Shown one piece after another: positions 19,207 to 27,724 of a DNA stretch of 64,000 nucleotides (positions are counted from its first letter, which is position 1; each line of letters starts with the position of its first letter). The stretch is from contig NZ_CP126994.1 in assembly GCF_030252425.1 (NCBI RefSeq), positions 1,612,001 to 1,676,000 on the forward strand, given 5' to 3'. The position numbers were made by a program, and so were the translations under genes. The DNA is from Acidisoma sp. PAMC 29798. GTDB lineage: Bacteria > Pseudomonadota > Alphaproteobacteria > Acetobacterales > Acetobacteraceae. The notes below the pieces were generated by a model. It saw only the letters and a program-made list of their open reading frames with translations, made no database searches and was not told the DNA's origin.

Positions 19207-19302
19207 GGATGCCTCGTGCCGTTAGGGGTGCTGGCCACAAAGGCGTTCAGTCGGCAGCGGCATTTAGGACCAAAATGCTGGCGCGGCAAGCACCTGGCAC
19301 GG

Positions 19303-19713
19303 TTAATGCAGCCTGGCGTTCTGGTGCGGACTATCGAGGCTGAAGGTCGGGATTCCGACATCGAATGTCTCACCCGACGCGGGCAAGACCATGTGATAGT
19401 CGCCGACCATGAAACCGGTCGGCGTGTCGAGCGGCGTGCCGGACGTATATTCGAAGGACTCGCCCGGCTCCAGAGTCGGCTGCTCCCCGACCACGCCCTC
19501 ACCATGCACATGCTGCACCCGGCCCTGGCCATTGGTGATGCGCCAGGTGCGCCGAAGCAATTGCACCGTCTGGTTCCCCTGGTTCTCGATCGTCACGCGA
19601 TAGGCCCAGACGAACCGGCCCTCATCGGGTTGGGACTGGTCTTCCAGATAGAAAGACTTGACGCTGACGCGGACGCCGCGCGTGGTTTTGCTGTAGCCGT
19701 TGGACATGTCCAC
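19303..19713 (-). CDS. apaG: ApaG domain protein
   Basis: A 136-residue immunoglobulin/fibronectin-III-like protein. Conserved features are FVWAYRVTIENQGNQTVQLLRRTWRITNGQG (in parts), VVGEQPTLEPGESFEYTSGTPLDTPTGFMVGDY and a final beta segment. In E. coli and Salmonella ApaG has been linked to Co2+ resistance and Mg2+ efflux and is encoded with apaH and ksgA. Here neither partner is present. The length is typical. It is read in the same direction as the methyltransferase, with the six-gene operon ending 37 bp upstream of its start. Confidence 0.93.
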   Translation of the reverse strand: MDMSNGYSKTTRGVRVSVKSFYLEDQSQPDEGRFVWAYRVTIENQGNQTVQLLRRTWRITNGQGRVQHVHGEGVVGEQPTLEPGESFEYTSGTPLDTPTGFMVGDYHMVLPASGETFDVGIPTFSLDSPHQNARLH

Positions 19714-19750
19714 AGGCTACCGCGCGGGCCGGAGAGCCGCAATCCGAACC

Positions 19751-20875
19751 TTATGCGAGTTCGAGCGCGCGGCCCGCGGCAATCATCGTCACTTCATTCG
19801 CGCTCCGCTCGCCCGCAATCGCCTGGGCCGCCAATTCTCCCGTGACGGGTGCGAGCTTGAAGCCATGGCCGGAGCAGGCGCTGATTAACCAGCCCTTGGC
19901 GCCGATGGCGCGCTGAATGAAATGCTCATCGTCCGTGACCGTATAGAAGCAGGCCTTGCGTTCCAGGATCTGGTAGCGGTCGAAATCCTTTAACACCAGT
20001 TTCAGCACCCGCATGAGCCGCGTGACGTCGAGGTCGGTGGCCGTGCGGTCTTCATCCGCGTCGCCGCGACGGGTGAAGACATGGTCGCCGAACTTCAGGC
20101 GCGTGCCGCGCAGCGGCGGCAGGATGTAGCAGCTGGTGTCCTCGCCGATATCGGCCATTACCGGCGACTCGGCCCAGGCGCGGGCGACATTCGCGGGCGG
20201 CGCCAGGAACATGACCGCCTGGCGGGAGGGAAGGCCCTCGGGCCGCAGGCTCGGCACCAGACGATCGGCCCACGCGCCGGCCGAAACCACCACGCGGTCG
20301 CCCGTGAACACCGTGCCGTTGGCGGTGACGGTCCCCGCCTCAGGGTCGATATCGCTGACCTGATGGTAGCTGTGGAAGGTCACGCCCCGGCTGCCGAGAT
20401 AGTTGATGAGATCGACGATGATGCGCGACGGAAACAGCATGCCCGCGCCATCCGTCTCGACGATGCGAGTGACGCCATCAAGGTTGAACATTGGGAAGCG
20501 CGCCGCTGCACGGGCGAGAGAGATATCCCGGTGGCCGATGTTCATCTTGATCAGCGCGGTCGAGGTGCCGTGATACCAGGGGTTGTCCCCGCGCATGAAA
20601 TAGACGGCGCCGGTCGGGTCGTAATGGACGGCGCCGATATCCTTCCACATCTGGTCCCACAGCCGGAAAGCCTGCGGCATCAGCGCGGCATAGCCCTCGA
20701 ACTCACCGTAGGCGTGGCGGGTGATGCGATGCTCGTCCCAGGATGATTGCTTGGGATTGGGGATCGGCCCCTGCTCGAACATCTCAATCTCGAAGCCGCG
20801 CCGCAGCAGGCTCCAGGCGGTGGCAAGACCCGCGATGCCGCAGCCGACGATGAGGACTTTTCCAGTGGCGGTCAT
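19751..20875 (-). CDS. SolA/MSOX-type FAD-dependent N-methyl amino acid oxidase
   Basis: A 374-residue flavoprotein. The dinucleotide motif is VGCGIAGLATAW at residues 10-21. Family hallmarks of monomeric sarcosine oxidase and N-methyltryptophan oxidase are all present: HRITRHAYGEFEGY, the covalent-flavin cysteine C309 in KACFYTVTDDEHF, and CSGHGFKLAPVTGELAA near the C-terminus. It would oxidatively demethylate a secondary amine such as sarcosine or an N-methyl amino acid, producing formaldehyde and hydrogen peroxide. It is the last gene of the operon that starts with the Rieske oxygenase, 13 bp after the DAO-family gene. The substrate is inferred only from family and context. Confidence 0.88.
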   Translation of the reverse strand: MTATGKVLIVGCGIAGLATAWSLLRRGFEIEMFEQGPIPNPKQSSWDEHRITRHAYGEFEGYAALMPQAFRLWDQMWKDIGAVHYDPTGAVYFMRGDNPWYHGTSTALIKMNIGHRDISLARAAARFPMFNLDGVTRIVETDGAGMLFPSRIIVDLINYLGSRGVTFHSYHQVSDIDPEAGTVTANGTVFTGDRVVVSAGAWADRLVPSLRPEGLPSRQAVMFLAPPANVARAWAESPVMADIGEDTSCYILPPLRGTRLKFGDHVFTRRGDADEDRTATDLDVTRLMRVLKLVLKDFDRYQILERKACFYTVTDDEHFIQRAIGAKGWLISACSGHGFKLAPVTGELAAQAIAGERSANEVTMIAAGRALELA

Positions 20876-20888
20876 AGCAATCTCTTTC

Positions 20889-22052
20889 TCAGGCGGTCTG
20901 CAAGGAGGACGGAACCCAGCCCTGTCGAGCCCGCCAATCGCGCGGCAGATTGGCGAAGCGGTCGAGGCCCAGCTTGTCGATATCGACGAAGCTGCAGCGC
21001 CCGTCCATGACCAGGTCGCGGATGGCGTGGCCGGTGGCCGGCGACAGACCGAAGCCCACGCTGCTCATGGTCGTCACGGTCAGGTTGTCCGGCTCACTCA
21101 GGCGTTCGATGATCGGGCGGCCGTCGGGCGTATTCTCGATAATGCCAGCCCAGCTGCGAATAACGCGCACATGCGCGGCCTTGGGGAACATCTCCACCAG
21201 CCGCTTGGACAGGTTCTGCAAAAGCTGCGTCGAGGGGCGGGCCGTGCTGCCGCCGATGGCTGGCGTCTCCTCCAGCCATTCATGCGGCCCGCCGCCATAA
21301 GCGAGGTTGCCGCGCAGCGTCTGCCGGCCATAGAGGCCGTTGCCGTCCACGCCGCCGATCTTCATCAGTGGCAGCGGTTCGGTGACGATCATCTCGGCTC
21401 GCGCCGGGGCCATTGGCATATGAATGCCGATCGTCTCCAGCAGCGCCGCCGTCTGCGGGCCTGCCGCCAGCACAAGCTGGTCGCACTCGAAACGCCCGCG
21501 ATCGGTTTCCACCGCTTTGACGCGGCCACCCTGCATGACGAGGGCGGAGACGGCGGTGTGTTGCAGAATGCGGGCGCCATGATCCTGCGCCGCCCAGGCA
21601 TAGGCCTGCACGGTGCGCTGCGGATTGGCCTGGCCACCGAAATGGTAATGGACCGCGCCGACCACGTTATCGCCGGCGAAGGGCACCAACTCCCGCGTCT
21701 GCTGGGCATCCAGCACGTCGTAGTGAAAGCCCATTGCGGCGCAGATATCGCCATGATCGCGATACTGGGCGAGCTGCGCCTCGGTCAGCGCGACGATGAC
21801 ACGCTCGGGGCGATGCTCGGTTGGATAGCCGAGCAGTTCGTCCATCTGCGGCCAAAGCCGCTGCTCTTCCTGGAACAAGGGGCTTTGGTAATGGGTGCAG
21901 CCGCCGCCATTGCGACCCGAAGCCTCCCACCCGACGATGCCCTTTTCGATGACGAGCACATCCACGCCTTCACGCGCCAGCCACCAGGCCGCACTGAGGC
22001 CGGTGACGCCGCCGCCGATGATGATGACCGAAGCCGATTTCTTATCCATCAT
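20889..22052 (-). CDS. DAO-family FAD-dependent dehydrogenase, catalytic subunit (SoxB/OoxB/HcnC-like)
   Basis: A 387-residue (386 from the next ATG) D-amino-acid-oxidase-superfamily protein with FAD motif VIIIGGGVTGLSAAWWLAREG at the N-terminus. Further family landmarks are GWEASGRNGGGCTHYQSPLF, the mid-protein HFGGQANPQRTVQAY, and the C-terminal FAD loop WAGIIENTPDGRPIIERL with SSVGFGLSPATGHAI. Such proteins form the substrate-oxidising half of heteromeric enzymes (sarcosine, opine, proline or hydroxyproline dehydrogenases). The partner, a BFD-type 2Fe-2S flavoprotein, is encoded 7 bp upstream. The ATG pair at 22052/22049 follows AAGGGTGCG, so upstream start codons are not needed. Confidence 0.85.
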   Translation of the reverse strand: MMDKKSASVIIIGGGVTGLSAAWWLAREGVDVLVIEKGIVGWEASGRNGGGCTHYQSPLFQEEQRLWPQMDELLGYPTEHRPERVIVALTEAQLAQYRDHGDICAAMGFHYDVLDAQQTRELVPFAGDNVVGAVHYHFGGQANPQRTVQAYAWAAQDHGARILQHTAVSALVMQGGRVKAVETDRGRFECDQLVLAAGPQTAALLETIGIHMPMAPARAEMIVTEPLPLMKIGGVDGNGLYGRQTLRGNLAYGGGPHEWLEETPAIGGSTARPSTQLLQNLSKRLVEMFPKAAHVRVIRSWAGIIENTPDGRPIIERLSEPDNLTVTTMSSVGFGLSPATGHAIRDLVMDGRCSFVDIDKLGLDRFANLPRDWRARQGWVPSSLQTA

Positions 22053-22059
22053 CGCACCC

Positions 22060-23613
22060 TTAAAAATGCGCCACGCGGCCGGCGCGCTCAATCTCGCGCT
22101 CCGTGCCGATATCGCCGTAAGGCACCCATTGGGTGCGGATGCCGAACCAGACGTTCCAGCCTTCCGCCATCTCGGGCGTTTCCTCGAAAGCGGCGAGCAC
22201 CGCCAGCGGCAGCGGGCGCACCGGCGCGCGGTAGCCAGCGAGCGCCACGGAGGACAGCGGAACGTCCGAGCCTATGGCCAGCATCATGGCCACCTGCTCC
22301 CGGCAGCGCCGCGCCTGGCACGGCCCCATGCAGGCGCGGGTGAGGCGCTTGATCTGGTCCTGGCTGACCGGCCCGTCCTGGGCGAGCGTTCCGATGTCGC
22401 GTTCGGCAATCGGCGCTTCGAGGTATCGCGGCGGCTGCACGGTGAGCAGATCGCCACGAGTCACGTCCTCGCAACTACAGGCGACGACATCAAGGCCGCC
22501 GGTCGCCATCAGCGCGCGCATCCACTCCATCCGATAGGCGTCGGTATCGGTGGGCAGCGCAGGCGTGGCGGTGAGGGGCGCGACATCGGGAATGTCATGA
22601 CCGAGCGAACGCAATGCGGCATGGGCGGCAGCGCGGCCGGAGGTTGCGGCATCCTGGCCGGCGCCGGTGCAATCGCCCGCGAAGAACACGCCACGCGGCG
22701 CCGAGTCGATGGCGGGCACATAAGCGCCGGCCTCGCTGCGGCGAATCTTCGCGCCGGCGACATCGGCGAGTTCCACCACCGGTACTGTGCCGATGGCCAG
22801 CACGATGGTGTCGCAGGCGACGGTCTGCACGGCGCCACCATCGACGGACGCGAGGACGGCACCGCTGACGCCGTCCGTGCCGGTCGCGCTCAGGATGGTA
22901 TGGCCGGTGACGATCCTGACGCCTTTCGCGATGAGGTCGCTGACATCCGCCTGCGGCGCGTCCCGCACCTCGACCAAAGCCGCGACCTCCAGCCCGGCGG
23001 CGAGGGCGCGATGGGCGGTGCTCACGGCGAGATCGCCGCTGCCGAGAATGACGAGGCGGTGGCCGTTGAAGGCCTCATAGCGCGTCAGCAGTGAGGTGAA
23101 GCCCAGCGCGCCGATCACGCCCGGCGTCTCAAAGCCCGCGAAGCTATACACAAGGTCCCGTGCGCCGGAGGCGATGATCAGCCGCTGAAACCCACACAAC
23201 CAGGAGCGCGTTTCATCCGCGAGGCCGACGACCGGGCCGGGCAGGGAGCGCAGATTGGGACCCGAGACGAAGGCGCCCCAGGCATAGGTGCCGAGCTTCA
23301 CATCGACGCCGAGTTCAAAAGCCTCTTCCAGACCTGGATTGGTGCTGAGAATCTGCTCCAGCATGCGGCCCTGATTCTGCACGGCGGCGGTCCAGCGATT
23401 ACCGAACAGCAAGGGCACATCCATGCCGATCAGCCCGGCGCCGAGGGGATTCTCATCGACCAGCGTCACGCGCACACCGGTGCGCGCGGCTTCGAGGGCG
23501 GCGGCGAGGCCCGCTTCACCGGCCCCGATAACGAGCAACTCGGTCTGCTCGGTGGCGAGCGTGTGTTTCTCGCCGATGGCGTGAAAGTCGGTGGTCGAGA
23601 CTTCGTCTTCCAT
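22060..23613 (-). CDS. FAD/NAD(P)-binding oxidoreductase with BFD-like 2Fe-2S domain (SoxA/OoxA/HcnB-like subunit)
   Basis: A 517-residue electron-transfer flavoprotein. The first FAD motif is LLVIGAGEAGLAAALEA, a second nucleotide-binding fold includes LVILGSGDLAVSTAHRA, and FFAGDCTGAGQDAATSGRAAAHAAL closes the FAD domain. The C-terminal region from about 400 has a BFD-like cluster with cysteines in VVACSCEDVTRGDLL and ACMGPCQARRCREQ. This is the architecture of the large subunit of opine oxidase, hydrogen cyanide synthase HcnB and related amine dehydrogenases. It would pass electrons from the neighbouring DAO-family subunit. Its ATG overlaps the preceding gene's stop (TGATG); a TTG one codon upstream is less likely. 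Confidence 0.85.
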   Translation of the reverse strand: MEDEVSTTDFHAIGEKHTLATEQTELLVIGAGEAGLAAALEAARTGVRVTLVDENPLGAGLIGMDVPLLFGNRWTAAVQNQGRMLEQILSTNPGLEEAFELGVDVKLGTYAWGAFVSGPNLRSLPGPVVGLADETRSWLCGFQRLIIASGARDLVYSFAGFETPGVIGALGFTSLLTRYEAFNGHRLVILGSGDLAVSTAHRALAAGLEVAALVEVRDAPQADVSDLIAKGVRIVTGHTILSATGTDGVSGAVLASVDGGAVQTVACDTIVLAIGTVPVVELADVAGAKIRRSEAGAYVPAIDSAPRGVFFAGDCTGAGQDAATSGRAAAHAALRSLGHDIPDVAPLTATPALPTDTDAYRMEWMRALMATGGLDVVACSCEDVTRGDLLTVQPPRYLEAPIAERDIGTLAQDGPVSQDQIKRLTRACMGPCQARRCREQVAMMLAIGSDVPLSSVALAGYRAPVRPLPLAVLAAFEETPEMAEGWNVWFGIRTQWVPYGDIGTEREIERAGRVAHF

Positions 23614-24875
23614 CAAACGGCCTCCAGAGCCTGGGCGAGATCGGCGATCAGATCGCCGCTATTCTCGATGCCGACGGACACCCGCATCGTCGCCGGGCCG
23701 ATATGGACCTCGGCGCGCGCGGCTTCGGGCACCGCGTAATGCGTTGTCGTCGCGGGGTGGCAGATCAGCGTTTCGGTGCCGCCGAGGCTGACGGCGAAGC
23801 GCAGCAGCTTAAGTCGGTCGAGGAAGCGGAAGGCCTCCGCCTCACCGCCGATGACATCGAAGGAAAAGGTCGAGCCGGGGCCGCCGCATTGGCGGTCATA
23901 GACGGCGCGCGCCGGCGTGCCCTCGGGCAGGAATCCGAGATAGGTGATGCGCGACACTTTCGGGTGGTCGCGCAGATAGGCGGCGATGACCTGTGCGTTC
24001 TGCCCGGCGCGTTCGGTGCGCAGCGACATGGTTTCGACCGAACGCAGCAGCATCCAGCAACTATGCGGATCGGCATGACAGCCGAACAGCGTGCGAAGTT
24101 TCTTCAGGCGACCGACCATAGCCGCCGAACCACTGACGCTGCCGCCCAGAAAGTCGCTGTGCCCACCTGCATATTTCGTCAGCGAGGTAATGCAAAGATC
24201 AGCGCCATGTTCCAGCGGCGATTGCAGGAAGGGGCCGAGGAAGGTGTTGTCGACCGAAATGATCGGGCGACGCCTCTGGGTGAGCGCGATGCGATCGGCG
24301 AGGCGGCTGATCATCGCAATATCGGCGATGGCGCAGGTCGGGTTGGCGGGGCTTTCCACCATGATCAGGGCCAGCGGACCGCGCGCCATGGCGGCGTTTG
24401 CGACCTCCGTCATATGGGCTTCGTCCACGCCATCCGTGAAGCCGAAGGGCGTCACGCCCAGCTCGTTCATATGGGTATGCAGCAGCATATCCGTGCCGCC
24501 ATAGATGGGGCGGCTGTGCATGACGCTGTCGCCCGGCCGCAGCAGGGACATGGCGAGGGTCGAGACCGCGGCCATGCCGCTGGAAAATAGGGCGCTGTCC
24601 TCGGCGCGGTCCAGCGCCGCGATGCGCGTCTGCGCCATCACCAGGTTCGGGTGATCGAGGCGGGCATAGATGAAGCCGTTCTTGCCGCCGCGCTCAGGCA
24701 CATCGCCATCGAAGAAGGCCTCATGCACGGCCTTTGCCTGGGCCGCGGAGGCATAGACGAAGGTCGAGGTCATGTAGATCGGCGGCTTGGCCGATCCGCC
24801 ATGCTCCGCAGGGTCGTACCCCGCGCCTACGGCGAGGGTTTCCAGCGCGAGAGTGCGGCCTTCTTGGGAAGCCAT
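23613..24875 (-). CDS. Cystathionine gamma-synthase-family PLP enzyme
   Basis: A 420-residue Cys/Met-metabolism PLP enzyme. Seen are the N-terminal KPPIYMTSTFVY, the cofactor region LFSSGMAAVSTLAMSLL, VESPANPTCAIADI, and the Schiff-base lysine K234 in SLTKYAGGHSDFLGGSV. The family covers gamma-synthases, gamma-lyases and beta-lyases acting on sulfur or oxygen leaving groups. It is embedded by one-base TGATG overlaps on both sides in an operon with a Rieske oxygenase system, so it very probably acts in the same pathway. Gamma- or beta-elimination of an onium-type substrate or product is one idea. The true reaction cannot be told from sequence. Confidence 0.85.
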   Translation of the reverse strand: MASQEGRTLALETLAVGAGYDPAEHGGSAKPPIYMTSTFVYASAAQAKAVHEAFFDGDVPERGGKNGFIYARLDHPNLVMAQTRIAALDRAEDSALFSSGMAAVSTLAMSLLRPGDSVMHSRPIYGGTDMLLHTHMNELGVTPFGFTDGVDEAHMTEVANAAMARGPLALIMVESPANPTCAIADIAMISRLADRIALTQRRRPIISVDNTFLGPFLQSPLEHGADLCITSLTKYAGGHSDFLGGSVSGSAAMVGRLKKLRTLFGCHADPHSCWMLLRSVETMSLRTERAGQNAQVIAAYLRDHPKVSRITYLGFLPEGTPARAVYDRQCGGPGSTFSFDVIGGEAEAFRFLDRLKLLRFAVSLGGTETLICHPATTTHYAVPEAARAEVHIGPATMRVSVGIENSGDLIADLAQALEAV

Positions 24876-25912
24876 CAGATCATTTCCAGAACAAGGGGGG
24901 AGCGGGCGTAGCTGCAACAGGCGAGGATTTCACCGGCCTCGACTTCATCATCCTCGATGCCGCCCATATGGTTCATCTCGATCTCGCCTGAGAGTTTGCG
25001 AACACGACAGGTGCCGCAGATGCCTTCGCCGCAGGCATAGGAGATGGCGATGCCGAGCCGCCCAGCGACGGCGAGCAAGGTTTCGTCCGGCCGCGCCGCG
25101 GTCGTCTTGCCGCTCGGCTGGAATGTGACGGAAAAACCCTCTTCCGAGGCGGAGACGGGCTTCGGTTCGGCAACCAGTTCCGGGATCGGGATGGCGACGA
25201 AGGCTTCCTTCCGGAAAGCCTGCGCGGGTCCACCGGCTTTGGCATGGGCGTCCTCGACCGCCGCCATGAAACCGCTCGGGCCGCAGCAAAATACCTCCCG
25301 CGTTGCGAGGTCGGGCGCCATGGCTGCGAAGGCGGCGGCATCGGGCCGCGATCCGGCGACCGTGGTCAGCCAATCGGTCTTCCAGGTTCCAAGCGCCGCC
25401 GCGATGCCGTCGATCTCGTCACGAAACAGCCAATCCTCGGCCTGACGGGCGAGATGGACGTAGTGAACGGGCGTTTTGCAATCGATATCGCGCAGCCAGC
25501 GGGCAATGGCGGCCATGGGCGTCGCGCCACTGCCCGCGGAGACGAGCAGCAACGGCGTCTCAGGCGGGGCCATCAGGCAGAAGGGACCGGCCGGCGGCTT
25601 GGCGCGCAGCGTCATGCCCGGTTGCAGACTATCATGCAGCCAGGCCGTGCCGCCGCGTTCGCTACCTTCCGCCTGGCGCTTGATCGTGAGATCGATCGCA
25701 CCCTCCTGCAACGGGGAGGAGGCGATGGTGAAGCAGCGCCAGGTGGGACCCGCCGCGAGAGGCAGTTCCACCGTCACGAACTGACCGGCATGAAAGATGA
25801 CGCGCGCGCCCGAGGCCGGCGCCAGCCGGAAGGTCTTCACCCCCGGCGCTTGCACCGACACGCTGACACAGCGCAGCGGGTCATCCCCGCCGCGCCACAC
25901 GCTGTCACTCAT
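24875..25912 (-). CDS. Rieske oxygenase reductase: FAD/NAD(P) module fused to C-terminal 2Fe-2S ferredoxin (GbcB-like)
   Basis: A 345-residue electron-transfer protein. The FAD-binding barrel carries RCFTIASSP, the NAD(P) domain carries GSGATPMAAIARWL and EVFCCGPSGFM. The C-terminal plant-type ferredoxin has CGEGICGTC and a final cysteine in ILACCSY. This order matches reductases of glycine-betaine and stachydrine demethylase systems (GbcB, hybrid-cluster-type reductases). It would feed electrons from NAD(P)H to the Rieske oxygenase encoded 8 bp upstream. The second ATG, at 25912, is preferred, since the first at 25924 overlaps the oxygenase stop. Confidence 0.9.
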   Translation of the reverse strand: MSDSVWRGGDDPLRCVSVSVQAPGVKTFRLAPASGARVIFHAGQFVTVELPLAAGPTWRCFTIASSPLQEGAIDLTIKRQAEGSERGGTAWLHDSLQPGMTLRAKPPAGPFCLMAPPETPLLLVSAGSGATPMAAIARWLRDIDCKTPVHYVHLARQAEDWLFRDEIDGIAAALGTWKTDWLTTVAGSRPDAAAFAAMAPDLATREVFCCGPSGFMAAVEDAHAKAGGPAQAFRKEAFVAIPIPELVAEPKPVSASEEGFSVTFQPSGKTTAARPDETLLAVAGRLGIAISYACGEGICGTCRVRKLSGEIEMNHMGGIEDDEVEAGEILACCSYARSPLVLEMI

Positions 25913-25920
25913 TGCGAAGA

Positions 25921-27198
25921 TCAAGCAGCGAAGGCGCTGGCGGCGACCGCGGCTTTGCCGTCGCGTTCATCGAGGTATTCCCGTGCCGTGTTGCAGTAAT
26001 AGTTGGTGAAGCGGGCAACGAGGGATTCAGCGACTTGCGAGTAAGGGCCAGGCAGGTAGCCCGGCGAGTTCACGCCGCGCTGGTTCAGCTCACAGAGGTC
26101 GCGATCCTGCATATTGGTGGTGTTCCAAAGCTCGATCAGCCGCTCCAGATCGTAATCCACACCCTCGACCGCATCCTTGTGGACCAGCCACTTGCCGATC
26201 ACCATCGTCTCATGCGCGCTGATCGGCACGCAACTGAACATGAAGGTGAAGTCGCCGGTCGAATGGCAGAAGCTATGCGGCTCGATCGCCCAACGCAGGC
26301 TGCCGATGTCGCCTTCACCGGCTTGCACCATCAGCTTGGACACGCCGCGCGTGCCATCCATGGTCATGGAGACCGCACCTTCATTCAGCGGAAAGCGAGC
26401 GGCCTGCCACCAGGCGGCTTCCTGCGGAATGCCGGGCAGGCCCAATTCCGTCATCCGGCGCTCGAAATTCGCCTCGTGATCGCTCACCGTCTCGAAATTG
26501 CCCTTGGCATAGATCGGGAAGGTGACGGCGAGTTCGGGGTGGCGGCCGGCGCAGTGATAGCATTCGCGCCCGTTCTCCATCACCAGCTTCCAGTTCGCCT
26601 TTTCCATGAGCGTATTCTGGAACGCGATCTTGGCGTTCTTCAGGTCATGCGGCTCCAGCATCGGCCCCACCGCAGCGCGGTAGGGTTCGAAGTCGGGCGC
26701 CGTGTCGGCCAGGCAGACATAGACCGTGCCGGCGACCGTCTCGACATGAACCGGGCGGAGGGAATGCGCGGCGGGGTCGAAGTCATCGCCCATCCGGCCG
26801 GCGAAGATCAGCTTACCGGACAGGTCGTAGGTCCATTGATGATAGGGGCAGACCAGTCTGGCGGATTTTCCCGACCCCTCGGGGCACAGCTCGGCGCCGC
26901 GATGGCGGCAGGTATTGTGGAAGCCGCGCAGGACGCCCGTGCGGTCACGGATGACGATGATCGGCGCGCCGCCGACGTTGAGGGACTGGTAACTACCGGT
27001 CGCTGGAAACTCGATCTCGAAGCCGATCAGGATCCAGGCGCGGCGGAAGATCGCGACCTGATCGAAGGCGAAGGCTTCCTCATCCTGATAGAGCGACTGG
27101 GGCAGGGAGTGGCCCGGCAGACGCGCGTCGAGCGCGGCCCGAATGCGGGCATAGGATCCAGCCTCGCGTCGGGGCTCGGGCTGGGCGTAATCCGGCAT
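25921..27198 (-). CDS. Rieske-type ring-hydroxylating/N-demethylating oxygenase, alpha subunit (GbcA/Stc2-like)
   Basis: A 425-residue non-haem iron oxygenase. The Rieske ligands are C97-R-H99 and C117-P-Y-H120 (CRHRGAE and CPYHQW). The mononuclear iron site shows NGRECYHCAGRHPEL with H215 and H220. Near the C-terminus is the segment QDRDLCELNQRGVNSPGYLPGPYSQVAE (in parts), typical of quaternary-amine demethylases such as GbcA and stachydrine demethylase rather than of aromatic dioxygenases. It would remove a methyl group from a betaine as formaldehyde. The ATG at 27198 is chosen because the 30 residues predicted upstream do not resemble the family. It is the first gene of a six-gene operon. 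Confidence 0.9.
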   Translation of the reverse strand: MPDYAQPEPRREAGSYARIRAALDARLPGHSLPQSLYQDEEAFAFDQVAIFRRAWILIGFEIEFPATGSYQSLNVGGAPIIVIRDRTGVLRGFHNTCRHRGAELCPEGSGKSARLVCPYHQWTYDLSGKLIFAGRMGDDFDPAAHSLRPVHVETVAGTVYVCLADTAPDFEPYRAAVGPMLEPHDLKNAKIAFQNTLMEKANWKLVMENGRECYHCAGRHPELAVTFPIYAKGNFETVSDHEANFERRMTELGLPGIPQEAAWWQAARFPLNEGAVSMTMDGTRGVSKLMVQAGEGDIGSLRWAIEPHSFCHSTGDFTFMFSCVPISAHETMVIGKWLVHKDAVEGVDYDLERLIELWNTTNMQDRDLCELNQRGVNSPGYLPGPYSQVAESLVARFTNYYCNTAREYLDERDGKAAVAASAFAA

Positions 27199-27520
27199 GC
27201 GGGCGGTCTCCAGGTCTCGGCTTGAAGCAGGGTGGCGAGGGTCTTCACGGTTCTGGGATTGGAGATGACCGCATCGGGTGCCTGACATGCAAATCGCATT
27301 TGCTCATGAGGCCATCGAATTTCGGAAGTCGGCTGTGTGCAGGGCAAAAACGCCTAATTTCGCCTAGCAATCCTTGGGAGAAACGTTCATACGGTCCCCT
27401 CGGCGCTTTTCATCCTGGGCTTACGTGTTTCGGCATCGGTTTTCCGTTCCGGCGCCTCCCCCCAATGCAAAAGTAGTTTGGCCCGCATGTTGCGGGTTGC
27501 CGGGTGCGAGGAGAGACCCG
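27199..27520. other. Intergenic region between the Rieske operon and cspA
   Basis: This 322-bp divergent region must contain the promoter of the minus-strand Rieske operon and the promoter and 5' leader of cspA. The clear elements are a palindrome at 27289-27303, a GAGGAG ribosome-binding site about 10 bp before cspA, and ATGTTGCGGGTTGC-type short repeats just before it. I see no credible gene or riboswitch in it. Confidence 0.6.
27289..27303. promoter_or_regulatory. Palindromic operator candidate upstream of the Rieske operon
   Basis: GCAAAT-CGC-ATTTGC, with perfect 6-bp arms, lies about 90 bp upstream of the first operon gene. The TGCAAAT/ATTTGC pattern resembles boxes of Fur-family regulators (Fur/Mur) in alphaproteobacteria, though a pathway-specific regulator is equally possible. 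Confidence 0.45.
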
Positions 27521-27724
27521 ATGTCGGTCGGCACGGTTAAGTGGTTCAATGCCACCAAAGGCTACGGTTTCATTCAGCCGGAAGACGGCACTGCGGATGT
27601 GTTCGTTCACATTTCAGCAGTCGAGCGCGCAGGCCTCGGTGGCCTGAACGAAGGCCAGAAGGTGACGTTCGATCTCGAGCGTGGCCAGAAGGGCAAGATG
27701 GCCGCAGTCAATCTTAAAGTCTGA
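27521..27724 (+). CDS. cspA: Cold-shock domain protein
   Basis: A 67-residue single CSD protein. RNP1 is [10 protein letters not shown] and RNP2 is VFVHISAV, following the canonical start [16 protein letters not shown]. It binds single-stranded RNA and DNA and acts as an RNA chaperone, often induced by cold or in stationary phase. The ATG is preceded by GAGGAGA. The leader of some 100 bp or more before it is long enough for the structured 5' UTR typical of these genes, but I cannot show one. It is followed by a weak hairpin. Confidence 0.96.

Follow-up and report, generated by a model that had tools for sequence, protein, structure and literature searches.

A conserved six-gene operon of Acidisoma sp. 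PAMC 29798 proposed to combine stepwise betaine N-demethylation with a pyridoxal phosphate-dependent step

Gene content and conservation of the operon

We analysed a stretch of 64 000 nucleotides from the genome of Acidisoma sp. PAMC 29798 (contig NZ_CP126994.1, positions 1,612,001–1,676,000; hereafter, the window), in which six genes lie head-to-tail on the minus strand at positions 19751–27198 (Table 1). In order, they encode a Rieske oxygenase (Rsk), a reductase (Red), a pyridoxal 5'-phosphate (PLP)-dependent enzyme, two flavoprotein subunits (FADa and DAOb) and a monomeric sarcosine oxidase-like protein (Sol). The junctions from Rsk to Sol are 8 bp, a TGATG overlap, a second TGATG overlap, 7 bp and 13 bp. 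Open reading frames (ORFs), sequence and domain scans thus confirmed the set described in a first-pass annotation of this DNA, namely, minus-strand genes joined by TGATG overlaps or by gaps of 13 bp or less. An alternative in-frame start of Rsk is possible upstream, at 27288, and apaG (19303–19713) lies approximately 37 bp beyond Sol. No sigma-70-like promoter was found in 19250–27700. A weak terminator-like hairpin on the minus strand (22085–22068) coincides with the end of FADa, just before DAOb; it may be due to chance or may be a step-down signal within the operon. Terminator-like sites numbered 10 on both strands, compared with 4.6 (sd 2.3) in shuffles.

Table 1. Genes of the operon in the window, with proposed functions
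Gene	Product (proposed function)	Position	Strand	Domain or model match
Rsk	Rieske oxygenase, 425 aa (proposed quaternary-amine N-demethylase)	25921..27198	-	PF00355 + PF00848
Red	FAD/NAD/2Fe-2S reductase (proposed Rsk partner)	24875..25912	-	FAD/NAD + Fer2 domains; GbcB model, 226.7 bits
PLP	PRK07049-type fold-I PLP enzyme (proposed eliminating lyase)	23613..24875	-	Cys_Met_Meta_PP; NF005455, 523.9 bits
FADa	FAD/NAD + BFD-like 2Fe-2S subunit (heteromeric amine oxidoreductase)	22060..23613	-	Pyr_redox_2 + SO_alpha_A3
DAOb	DAO-family catalytic subunit (with FADa, proposed oxidoreductase of N,N-dimethyl tertiary amines)	20889..22052	-	PF01266, 225 bits
Sol	Monomeric sarcosine oxidase-like (proposed N-methyl amino acid oxidase)	19751..20875	-	DAO domain; NF008425, 189.8 bits

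Conserved synteny had been raised in the first-pass annotation as a check on the operon, and the order Rsk–(Red)–PLP–FADa–DAOb was indeed found on one strand at 12 loci: the window, L023, L025, L105, L110, L111, L112, L155, L156, L178, L199 and L200. Gene positions in the compared loci rest on tblastn matches, the ORF calls there being rough and some wrong (for example, in L110 and L111). These loci come from at least five families of Alphaproteobacteria (labels f1, f13, f40, f63 and f174). The full order Rsk–Red–PLP–FADa–DAOb–Sol–apaG was present in Acidisoma silvae (L023), with 68–86% identity, and plasmid records added a plasmid of Novosphingobium capsulatum (L178). Sol was present in eight of the 12 loci, Red was part of the operon in three (the window, L023 and L156), and a LysR gene adjoined the cluster in nine. 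A methionine biosynthesis operon, as the neighbouring apaG might imply, was rejected, because apaG lies near the cluster only in the window and L023.

Single genes of the set were counted in samples of whole genomes, with the window genome included in each count. Of 200 genomes from the order, 10 carried FADa (E 1e-60); DAOb was detected in eight of 385 genomes of the class and six of 398 of the phylum (E 1e-90), all six belonging to the class of the window; the PLP enzyme was detected in 31 of the 385 genomes of the class (E 1e-100). A genome scan with Rsk, taken as the best 80 loci, gave five at 50% identity or more. Keyword searches of open-licence papers yielded no description of the gene combination. 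The operon is conserved and without a name, and would combine betaine demethylation of a known sort with an added PLP step.

The Rieske oxygenase and the flavoenzymes

The best-scoring models for Rsk and Red were the NCBIfam models GbcA and GbcB, in both cases under the cut-off (440.4 bits against 670 for Rsk, and 226.7 bits against 500 for Red). A second Rieske protein of the window genome was also under the GbcA cut-off (443.1 bits), suggesting that this model may be narrow. In a PDB search with Rsk, 3n0q (deposited as a putative aromatic dioxygenase) scored 384 bits, 3vca and 4qup 372 bits, and carnitine monooxygenase 118 bits, while aromatic dioxygenases reached at most 83 bits. On these scores an aromatic ring dioxygenase was rejected and Rsk was placed with the betaine demethylases, as the first-pass annotation had supposed; neither the ORFs nor the domain scans gave a dioxygenase beta subunit gene in the operon. 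We take 3vca to be the stachydrine demethylase Stc2, a Rieske N-demethylase of a betaine, and we know of no PLP enzyme in the Stc2 pathway. All 12 Rsk orthologues contained the Rieske 2Fe-2S motif C-x-H...C-x2-H and the mononuclear-iron motif N-x-R-E-x-Y-H-x4-H-P.

A Rieske tree of 46 proteins was built by a quick search with Shimodaira–Hasegawa-like approximate likelihood ratio test (SH-aLRT) support and no bootstrap. Its rows included 16 of the 75 GbcA-like loci L028–L102, L024, L026 and L027, and three distant Rieske proteins of the window genome; absent from it were L180, whose gene is cut, and the extra Rieske genes of genomes G851 and G932. The 12 cluster proteins and L024 formed one clade (SH-aLRT 99), in which L024 was the only one of 13 members outside a cluster. 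The 16 rows labelled Gbc by similarity fell in a separate set of 26 (support 96).

FADa and DAOb occurred together in 27 of 27 loci, each found by searching with one of the pair. The label 'BFD-type' given to FADa in the first-pass annotation holds in the form of a cysteine motif, C-x-C ... C-x4-C, which was kept in all 12 orthologues. As in heteromeric amine oxidases such as SoxAB and 1y56, a FAD/NAD and Fe-S subunit is combined with a DAO catalytic subunit, and the best PDB match of DAOb was 1y56_B (111 bits), from what we take to be a Pyrococcus complex. Opine-oxidase-like pairs are another type of heteromeric amine oxidase. The heterotetrameric sarcosine oxidase SoxBDAG was rejected for the pair, based on 125 bits of the 1164 required for SoxA, 135 bits of the 529 required for SoxB, and the lack of a visible GcvT domain in FADa, which has 517 aa compared with 973 aa for the SoxA of L105.

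Sol scored 189.8 bits against NF008425 (N-methyltryptophan oxidase; cut-off 257), and in the PDB it matched monomeric sarcosine oxidases as well as 7exs (112.5 bits). All eight orthologues kept the motifs R-x2-R-H-A-Y, C-x-Y-T, L-K-x-G-x-H and G-H-G-F-K, and alignment with 1zov indicated that Sol keeps R49, R52, K265, H269, C315, Y317 and K348 of monomeric sarcosine oxidase. Among these are presumably the Cys that links the flavin and the Arg and Lys that bind the carboxylate. Sol is thus similar to the monomeric sarcosine and N-methyltryptophan oxidases in sequence, flavin Cys motif and Arg and Lys positions, but has Trp in place of His45 and misses the N-methyltryptophan oxidase cut-off.

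Four cluster loci are without Sol (L105, L155, L178 and L200), and three of these have SoxB/SoxA genes nearby. SoxB and SoxA genes lie directly downstream of DAOb on the same strand in L105 and L200, and approximately 5 kb off on the opposite strand (L204) in L155. Both SoxA and SoxB of L105 were over their cut-offs. For the two small proteins of this locus read as SoxD and SoxG, no model match was obtained at E 1e-30. In a SoxB tree, L200 and L204 grouped together (support 99), with L105 and L202/L203 placed elsewhere; this tree led us to reject one shared clade for all cluster-linked SoxB. The occurrence of another sarcosine oxidase where Sol is absent suggests that the third step would be the oxidation of a secondary N-methyl amino acid.

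The PLP enzyme, adjoining importers and partial gene sets

The PLP enzyme scored 523.9 bits against NF005455, the model of the PRK07049 family (cut-off 504), and its Novosphingobium orthologue 516.5 bits. A total of 45 models matched, and among the 24 others listed no cut-off was passed. PRK07049 itself is named only 'cystathionine gamma-synthase family protein'. Of the cystathionine gamma-synthase-like character assigned in the first-pass annotation, the family fold stood; cystathionine gamma-synthase proper did not, since among the models listed the PRK07049 cut-off alone was passed. As in other members of the family (closest solved chains, 5ijg and 7swh), alignments revealed Y70/R72, Y125, D209, K234, S363 and R398 at the catalytic positions, the roles of which are in part presumed. 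The cluster proteins nevertheless differ from the rest of the family. In a tree of 42 proteins, the 12 formed one clade (98) apart from a selection of 27 other PRK07049 proteins, and 13 positions set them apart, including His51, Leu73 and Thr262. His51 was found in all 12 cluster proteins, with Phe at this position in 27 of the 27 others; Thr262 was likewise found in all 12, compared with one of the 27.

Thr262 aligned with Asp241 of methionine gamma-lyase, Gly127 with Cys116, and Arg261–Thr262 with Lys240–Asp241. In the part of a methioninase survey that bears on these positions, Cys116 (YGC) and Lys240–Asp241 (KD) serve as the signature (PMC11568061). Methionine gamma-lyase was rejected as the identity of the PLP enzyme, which has YGG and RT instead of YGC and KD and reached 311 of the 549.7 bits required.

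Other PRK07049 genes occur in unrelated contexts. Relatives of Rsk, Red, FADa, DAOb and Sol at 80 bits or more were present in none of 14 loci around them; a GcvT-fused flavoenzyme was present in four, and in three of the 14 loci DAOb matches of 60–69 bits lay inside such an enzyme. The neighbours, those in L162, L165 and L185 among them, point to no single function. In L162, the PRK07049 gene stands beside HAL and urocanase (Pfam) and a GcvT-fused flavoenzyme. Urocanase-like and GcvT-fused flavoenzyme genes were also detected by similarity in L163 and L169, with a HAL-like match in L163 and none in L169; these three loci possibly represent a methylated-histidine pathway. L165 contains a MetE-like protein beside the PRK07049 gene, and L185 contains Lrp and ProV-type genes.

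An OpuAC-type quaternary-onium importer adjoins four of the 12 clusters (L025, L110, L112 and L156). The window is not among these, and the choline-type importer of its genome is located elsewhere (G000, 1.18 Mb). The L110 importer is choline-type: the permease and ATPase exceeded the cut-offs for ChoW and ChoV, the binding protein was one bit short (378.2 bits against 379.05), and a betaine aldehyde dehydrogenase gene follows (725 bits; cut-off 593). The permease, ATPase and dehydrogenase of L112 are 81–91% identical to those of L110. The L025 binding protein resembles DmpX (7yle; 234.6 bits), and that of L156 is 73% identical to it. Eight residues line the pocket in the complex with dimethylsulfoniopropionate (DMSP) (PMC10030565). 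Read from the alignment, all eight are kept in L025 and seven in L156, with Gly at the Ala153 position. Since different clusters have different importers, these favour a quaternary-onium substrate without singling out one compound.

Parts of the gene set were observed in other arrangements. A Rieske gene, FADa and DAOb occur with no PLP enzyme in L103 of the window genome (C1:3385000-3404000) and on Paracoccus and Ancylobacter plasmids (L179–L181), DAOb of these loci being 62–65% identical to that of the window. The plasmid loci also hold a GlxA regulator, betaine-type ATP-binding cassette (ABC) genes and a nitrilase-family gene, and L179 and L181 add MmgE/PrpD; this type of locus is perhaps a route for another betaine. 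L104 (genome G177) contains FADa–DAOb–Sol close to ABC genes and a gene for a family-5 binding protein. No Rieske relative was detected in G177 at E 1e-40, and the flavoenzymes of this locus may by themselves act on a tertiary amine that is imported as such. In L107 (9348-13245), the gene directly after FADa–DAOb is methionine gamma-lyase-like but belongs to another subfamily; its protein scored 487 bits against NF005695 (cut-off 666) and has Asn at the Cys116 position. This arrangement, found in one of the 15 FADa/DAOb loci lacking the Rsk–PLP pair, is a hint of a second pairing of FADa–DAOb with this class of PLP enzyme by the same logic. On the Novosphingobium capsulatum plasmid, a CocE/NonD family hydrolase gene comes after DAOb (L178:8240-10177), and its product could release the substrate from an ester.

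Proposed pathway and competing explanations

We propose that the operon would demethylate, step by step, a trimethylated alpha-amino acid carrying a beta or gamma leaving group, with PLP-dependent elimination to follow. The demethylation cascade itself is likely; for the scheme as a whole, including elimination, we see the chances as even. Rsk with Red would convert the quaternary amine (NMe3) to the tertiary amine (NMe2) with release of formaldehyde, FADa/DAOb would convert the tertiary amine to the secondary amine (NHMe), and Sol the secondary to the primary amine (NH2). The freed amine would then form a Schiff base with PLP, allowing the PRK07049-type enzyme to remove the side-chain substituent, yielding a 2-oxo acid and ammonia (2-oxobutyrate where the substrate is gamma-substituted). 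The PLP enzyme is placed last because its chemistry needs a free amino group, which is absent in a trimethylated amino acid, and the betaine is assumed to derive from an amino acid with a beta or gamma substituent because elimination needs a side-chain leaving group. The first-pass annotation had proposed stepwise removal of methyl groups from a quaternary amine or sulfonium compound, with the PLP enzyme acting on an intermediate or product. Stepwise demethylation with PLP chemistry on the product is the best reading, given the conserved gene set, the importers adjoining four of 12 clusters and one oxidase type per methyl group; the sulfonium option is only weakly hinted at, by DmpX-like importers at two of 12.

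Among the natural betaines known to us, homoserine betaine and glyceryl-N,N,N-trimethylhomoserine, the deacylated headgroup of the betaine lipid diacylglyceryltrimethylhomoserine (DGTS), would fit best. The methionine gamma-lyase family also cleaves homoserine ethers. After three demethylations, the PLP enzyme would break the C-O bond of either compound by gamma-elimination, giving glycerol (or water), 2-oxobutyrate and ammonia; as a specific assignment judged from sequence, this headgroup route is rather unlikely. O-Acetyl-L-homoserine has been prepared for the kinetics of elimination by methionine gamma-lyase, as described in one part of that study (PMC9307983). A DGTS ether-cleaving enzyme is presumed, with none identified, in the section of a 2023 review that deals with it (PMC9892843). 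Our keyword search of open-licence papers found no breakdown pathway for DGTS or homoserine betaine. Recycling of the cell's own DGTS was rejected because BtaA (PF11899) was found in none of nine cluster genomes; DGTS would then have to come from other organisms, and a bacterium using it would be a scavenger.

The main competing explanation is an operon for glycine betaine breakdown, which we regard as rather unlikely. In this case Rsk/Red would convert glycine betaine to dimethylglycine, FADa/DAOb would convert this to sarcosine, and Sol or SoxB/SoxA would yield glycine, the PLP enzyme having a secondary role, such as one in methionine or C1 metabolism. The known GbcAB–dimethylglycine–sarcosine oxidase pathway has the same kinds of component, with a Rieske protein and GbcB-like reductase, a flavoprotein and a sarcosine oxidase-type enzyme, one enzyme per methyl group. 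GbcA and GbcB being the top models for Rsk and Red, the ChoXWV and BetB genes adjoining L110 and L112, and the SoxB and SoxA genes after DAOb in the Sol-less L105 and L200 all agree with such a function. However, the Rieske protein of the operon falls in a separate clade, and both Rsk and Red are under the Gbc cut-offs (440/670 and 227/500), although so is the second Rieske protein (443). The tertiary-amine step of the GbcAB pathway is performed by a GcvT-fused flavoenzyme, whereas for the operon we propose the FADa/DAOb pair; the operon moreover has a strictly linked PLP enzyme. The strict linkage of the PLP enzyme to the demethylases is explained by the cascade ending in elimination, and is left unexplained by glycine betaine.

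The cluster genomes also contain other candidates for the glycine betaine function. Rieske relatives at 38–46% identity were found in all nine cluster genomes searched, that of the window included; those of G851 and G932 (38–42%) were outside the tree sample. The seven genomes placed in the tree (the window genome, G068, G149, G193, G156, G238 and G551) all carry a second Rieske clade (eight rows, support 100), with a Red-like reductase beside it in six and a weak match in G156. These counts weaken the case for glycine betaine as the substrate of the cluster. In G238, the choline locus (BetB–ChoXWV–Rsk–Red) holds the second Rieske gene and not the cluster, and a GcvT-fused flavoenzyme lies near the second Rieske gene in the window genome and G551 (L113, L207 and L210 are the loci of these arrangements). 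The two SoxB/SoxA sets of G551, one near each Rieske gene, fall in different SoxB clades; the SoxB genes close to the g27 clusters (L202 and L203) group with the one near the second Rieske gene of G551. A glycine betaine route thus seems, from these gene contents, to exist beside the cluster.

Two further substrates were considered within the same general scheme. The betaine of an S- or otherwise beta- or gamma-substituted amino acid, or a tertiary or opine-like amine, would have the PLP enzyme perform C-S or C-N cleavage. The wider PLP family does include C-S lyases, and FADa/DAOb occur with no Rieske gene in the locus beside a family-5 (L104) or family-3 (L109) binding-protein gene, the L104 genome as a whole lacking a Rieske relative at the threshold above. 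The methionine gamma-lyase signature is missing, however, and we know of no abundant natural betaine with such a substituent; this option is quite unlikely. A sulfonium compound such as DMSP, entering via a DmpX-like importer, is very unlikely: the binding proteins of L025 and L156 keep most or all of the DMSP pocket, but such importers adjoin only two of 12 loci, Sol and FADa/DAOb are members of families that oxidise amines, and the residues of N-methyl amino acid oxidases are conserved in Sol.

Several findings weigh against the proposed elimination pathway and its headgroup version. Importers differ between clusters (ChoXWV in L110 and L112, DmpX-like in L025 and L156, and none of these in eight), and the ChoXWV and BetB genes beside L110 and L112, with SoxB/SoxA further on (L202 and L203, near the clusters of G068 and G149), are as expected for glycine betaine. 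The GbcA model fails to separate the two Rieske clades. Within the sequence examined, Rieske homologues without the flavoenzymes, which the first-pass annotation would have counted against its reading, do exist at 50–56% identity (L024, L026 and L027); L024, the one clade member outside a cluster, is a 13 kb contig of a metagenome bin without other cluster genes. The flanking 7 kb of L178 showed no third demethylase. Among the neighbours scanned, which are part of all neighbours, neither a lipase nor a glycerol gene recurred, and the absence of BtaA noted above counts on the same side.

The operon represents a conserved alphaproteobacterial catabolic module without a name, in which complete removal of the N-methyl groups seems to make way for PLP chemistry. 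It offers a concrete candidate for the step that is missing in the turnover of betaine lipids and homoserine betaine. If the headgroup route is true, the PLP enzyme would be the DGTS ether-cleaving type of enzyme presumed in the relevant section of the review (PMC9892843).

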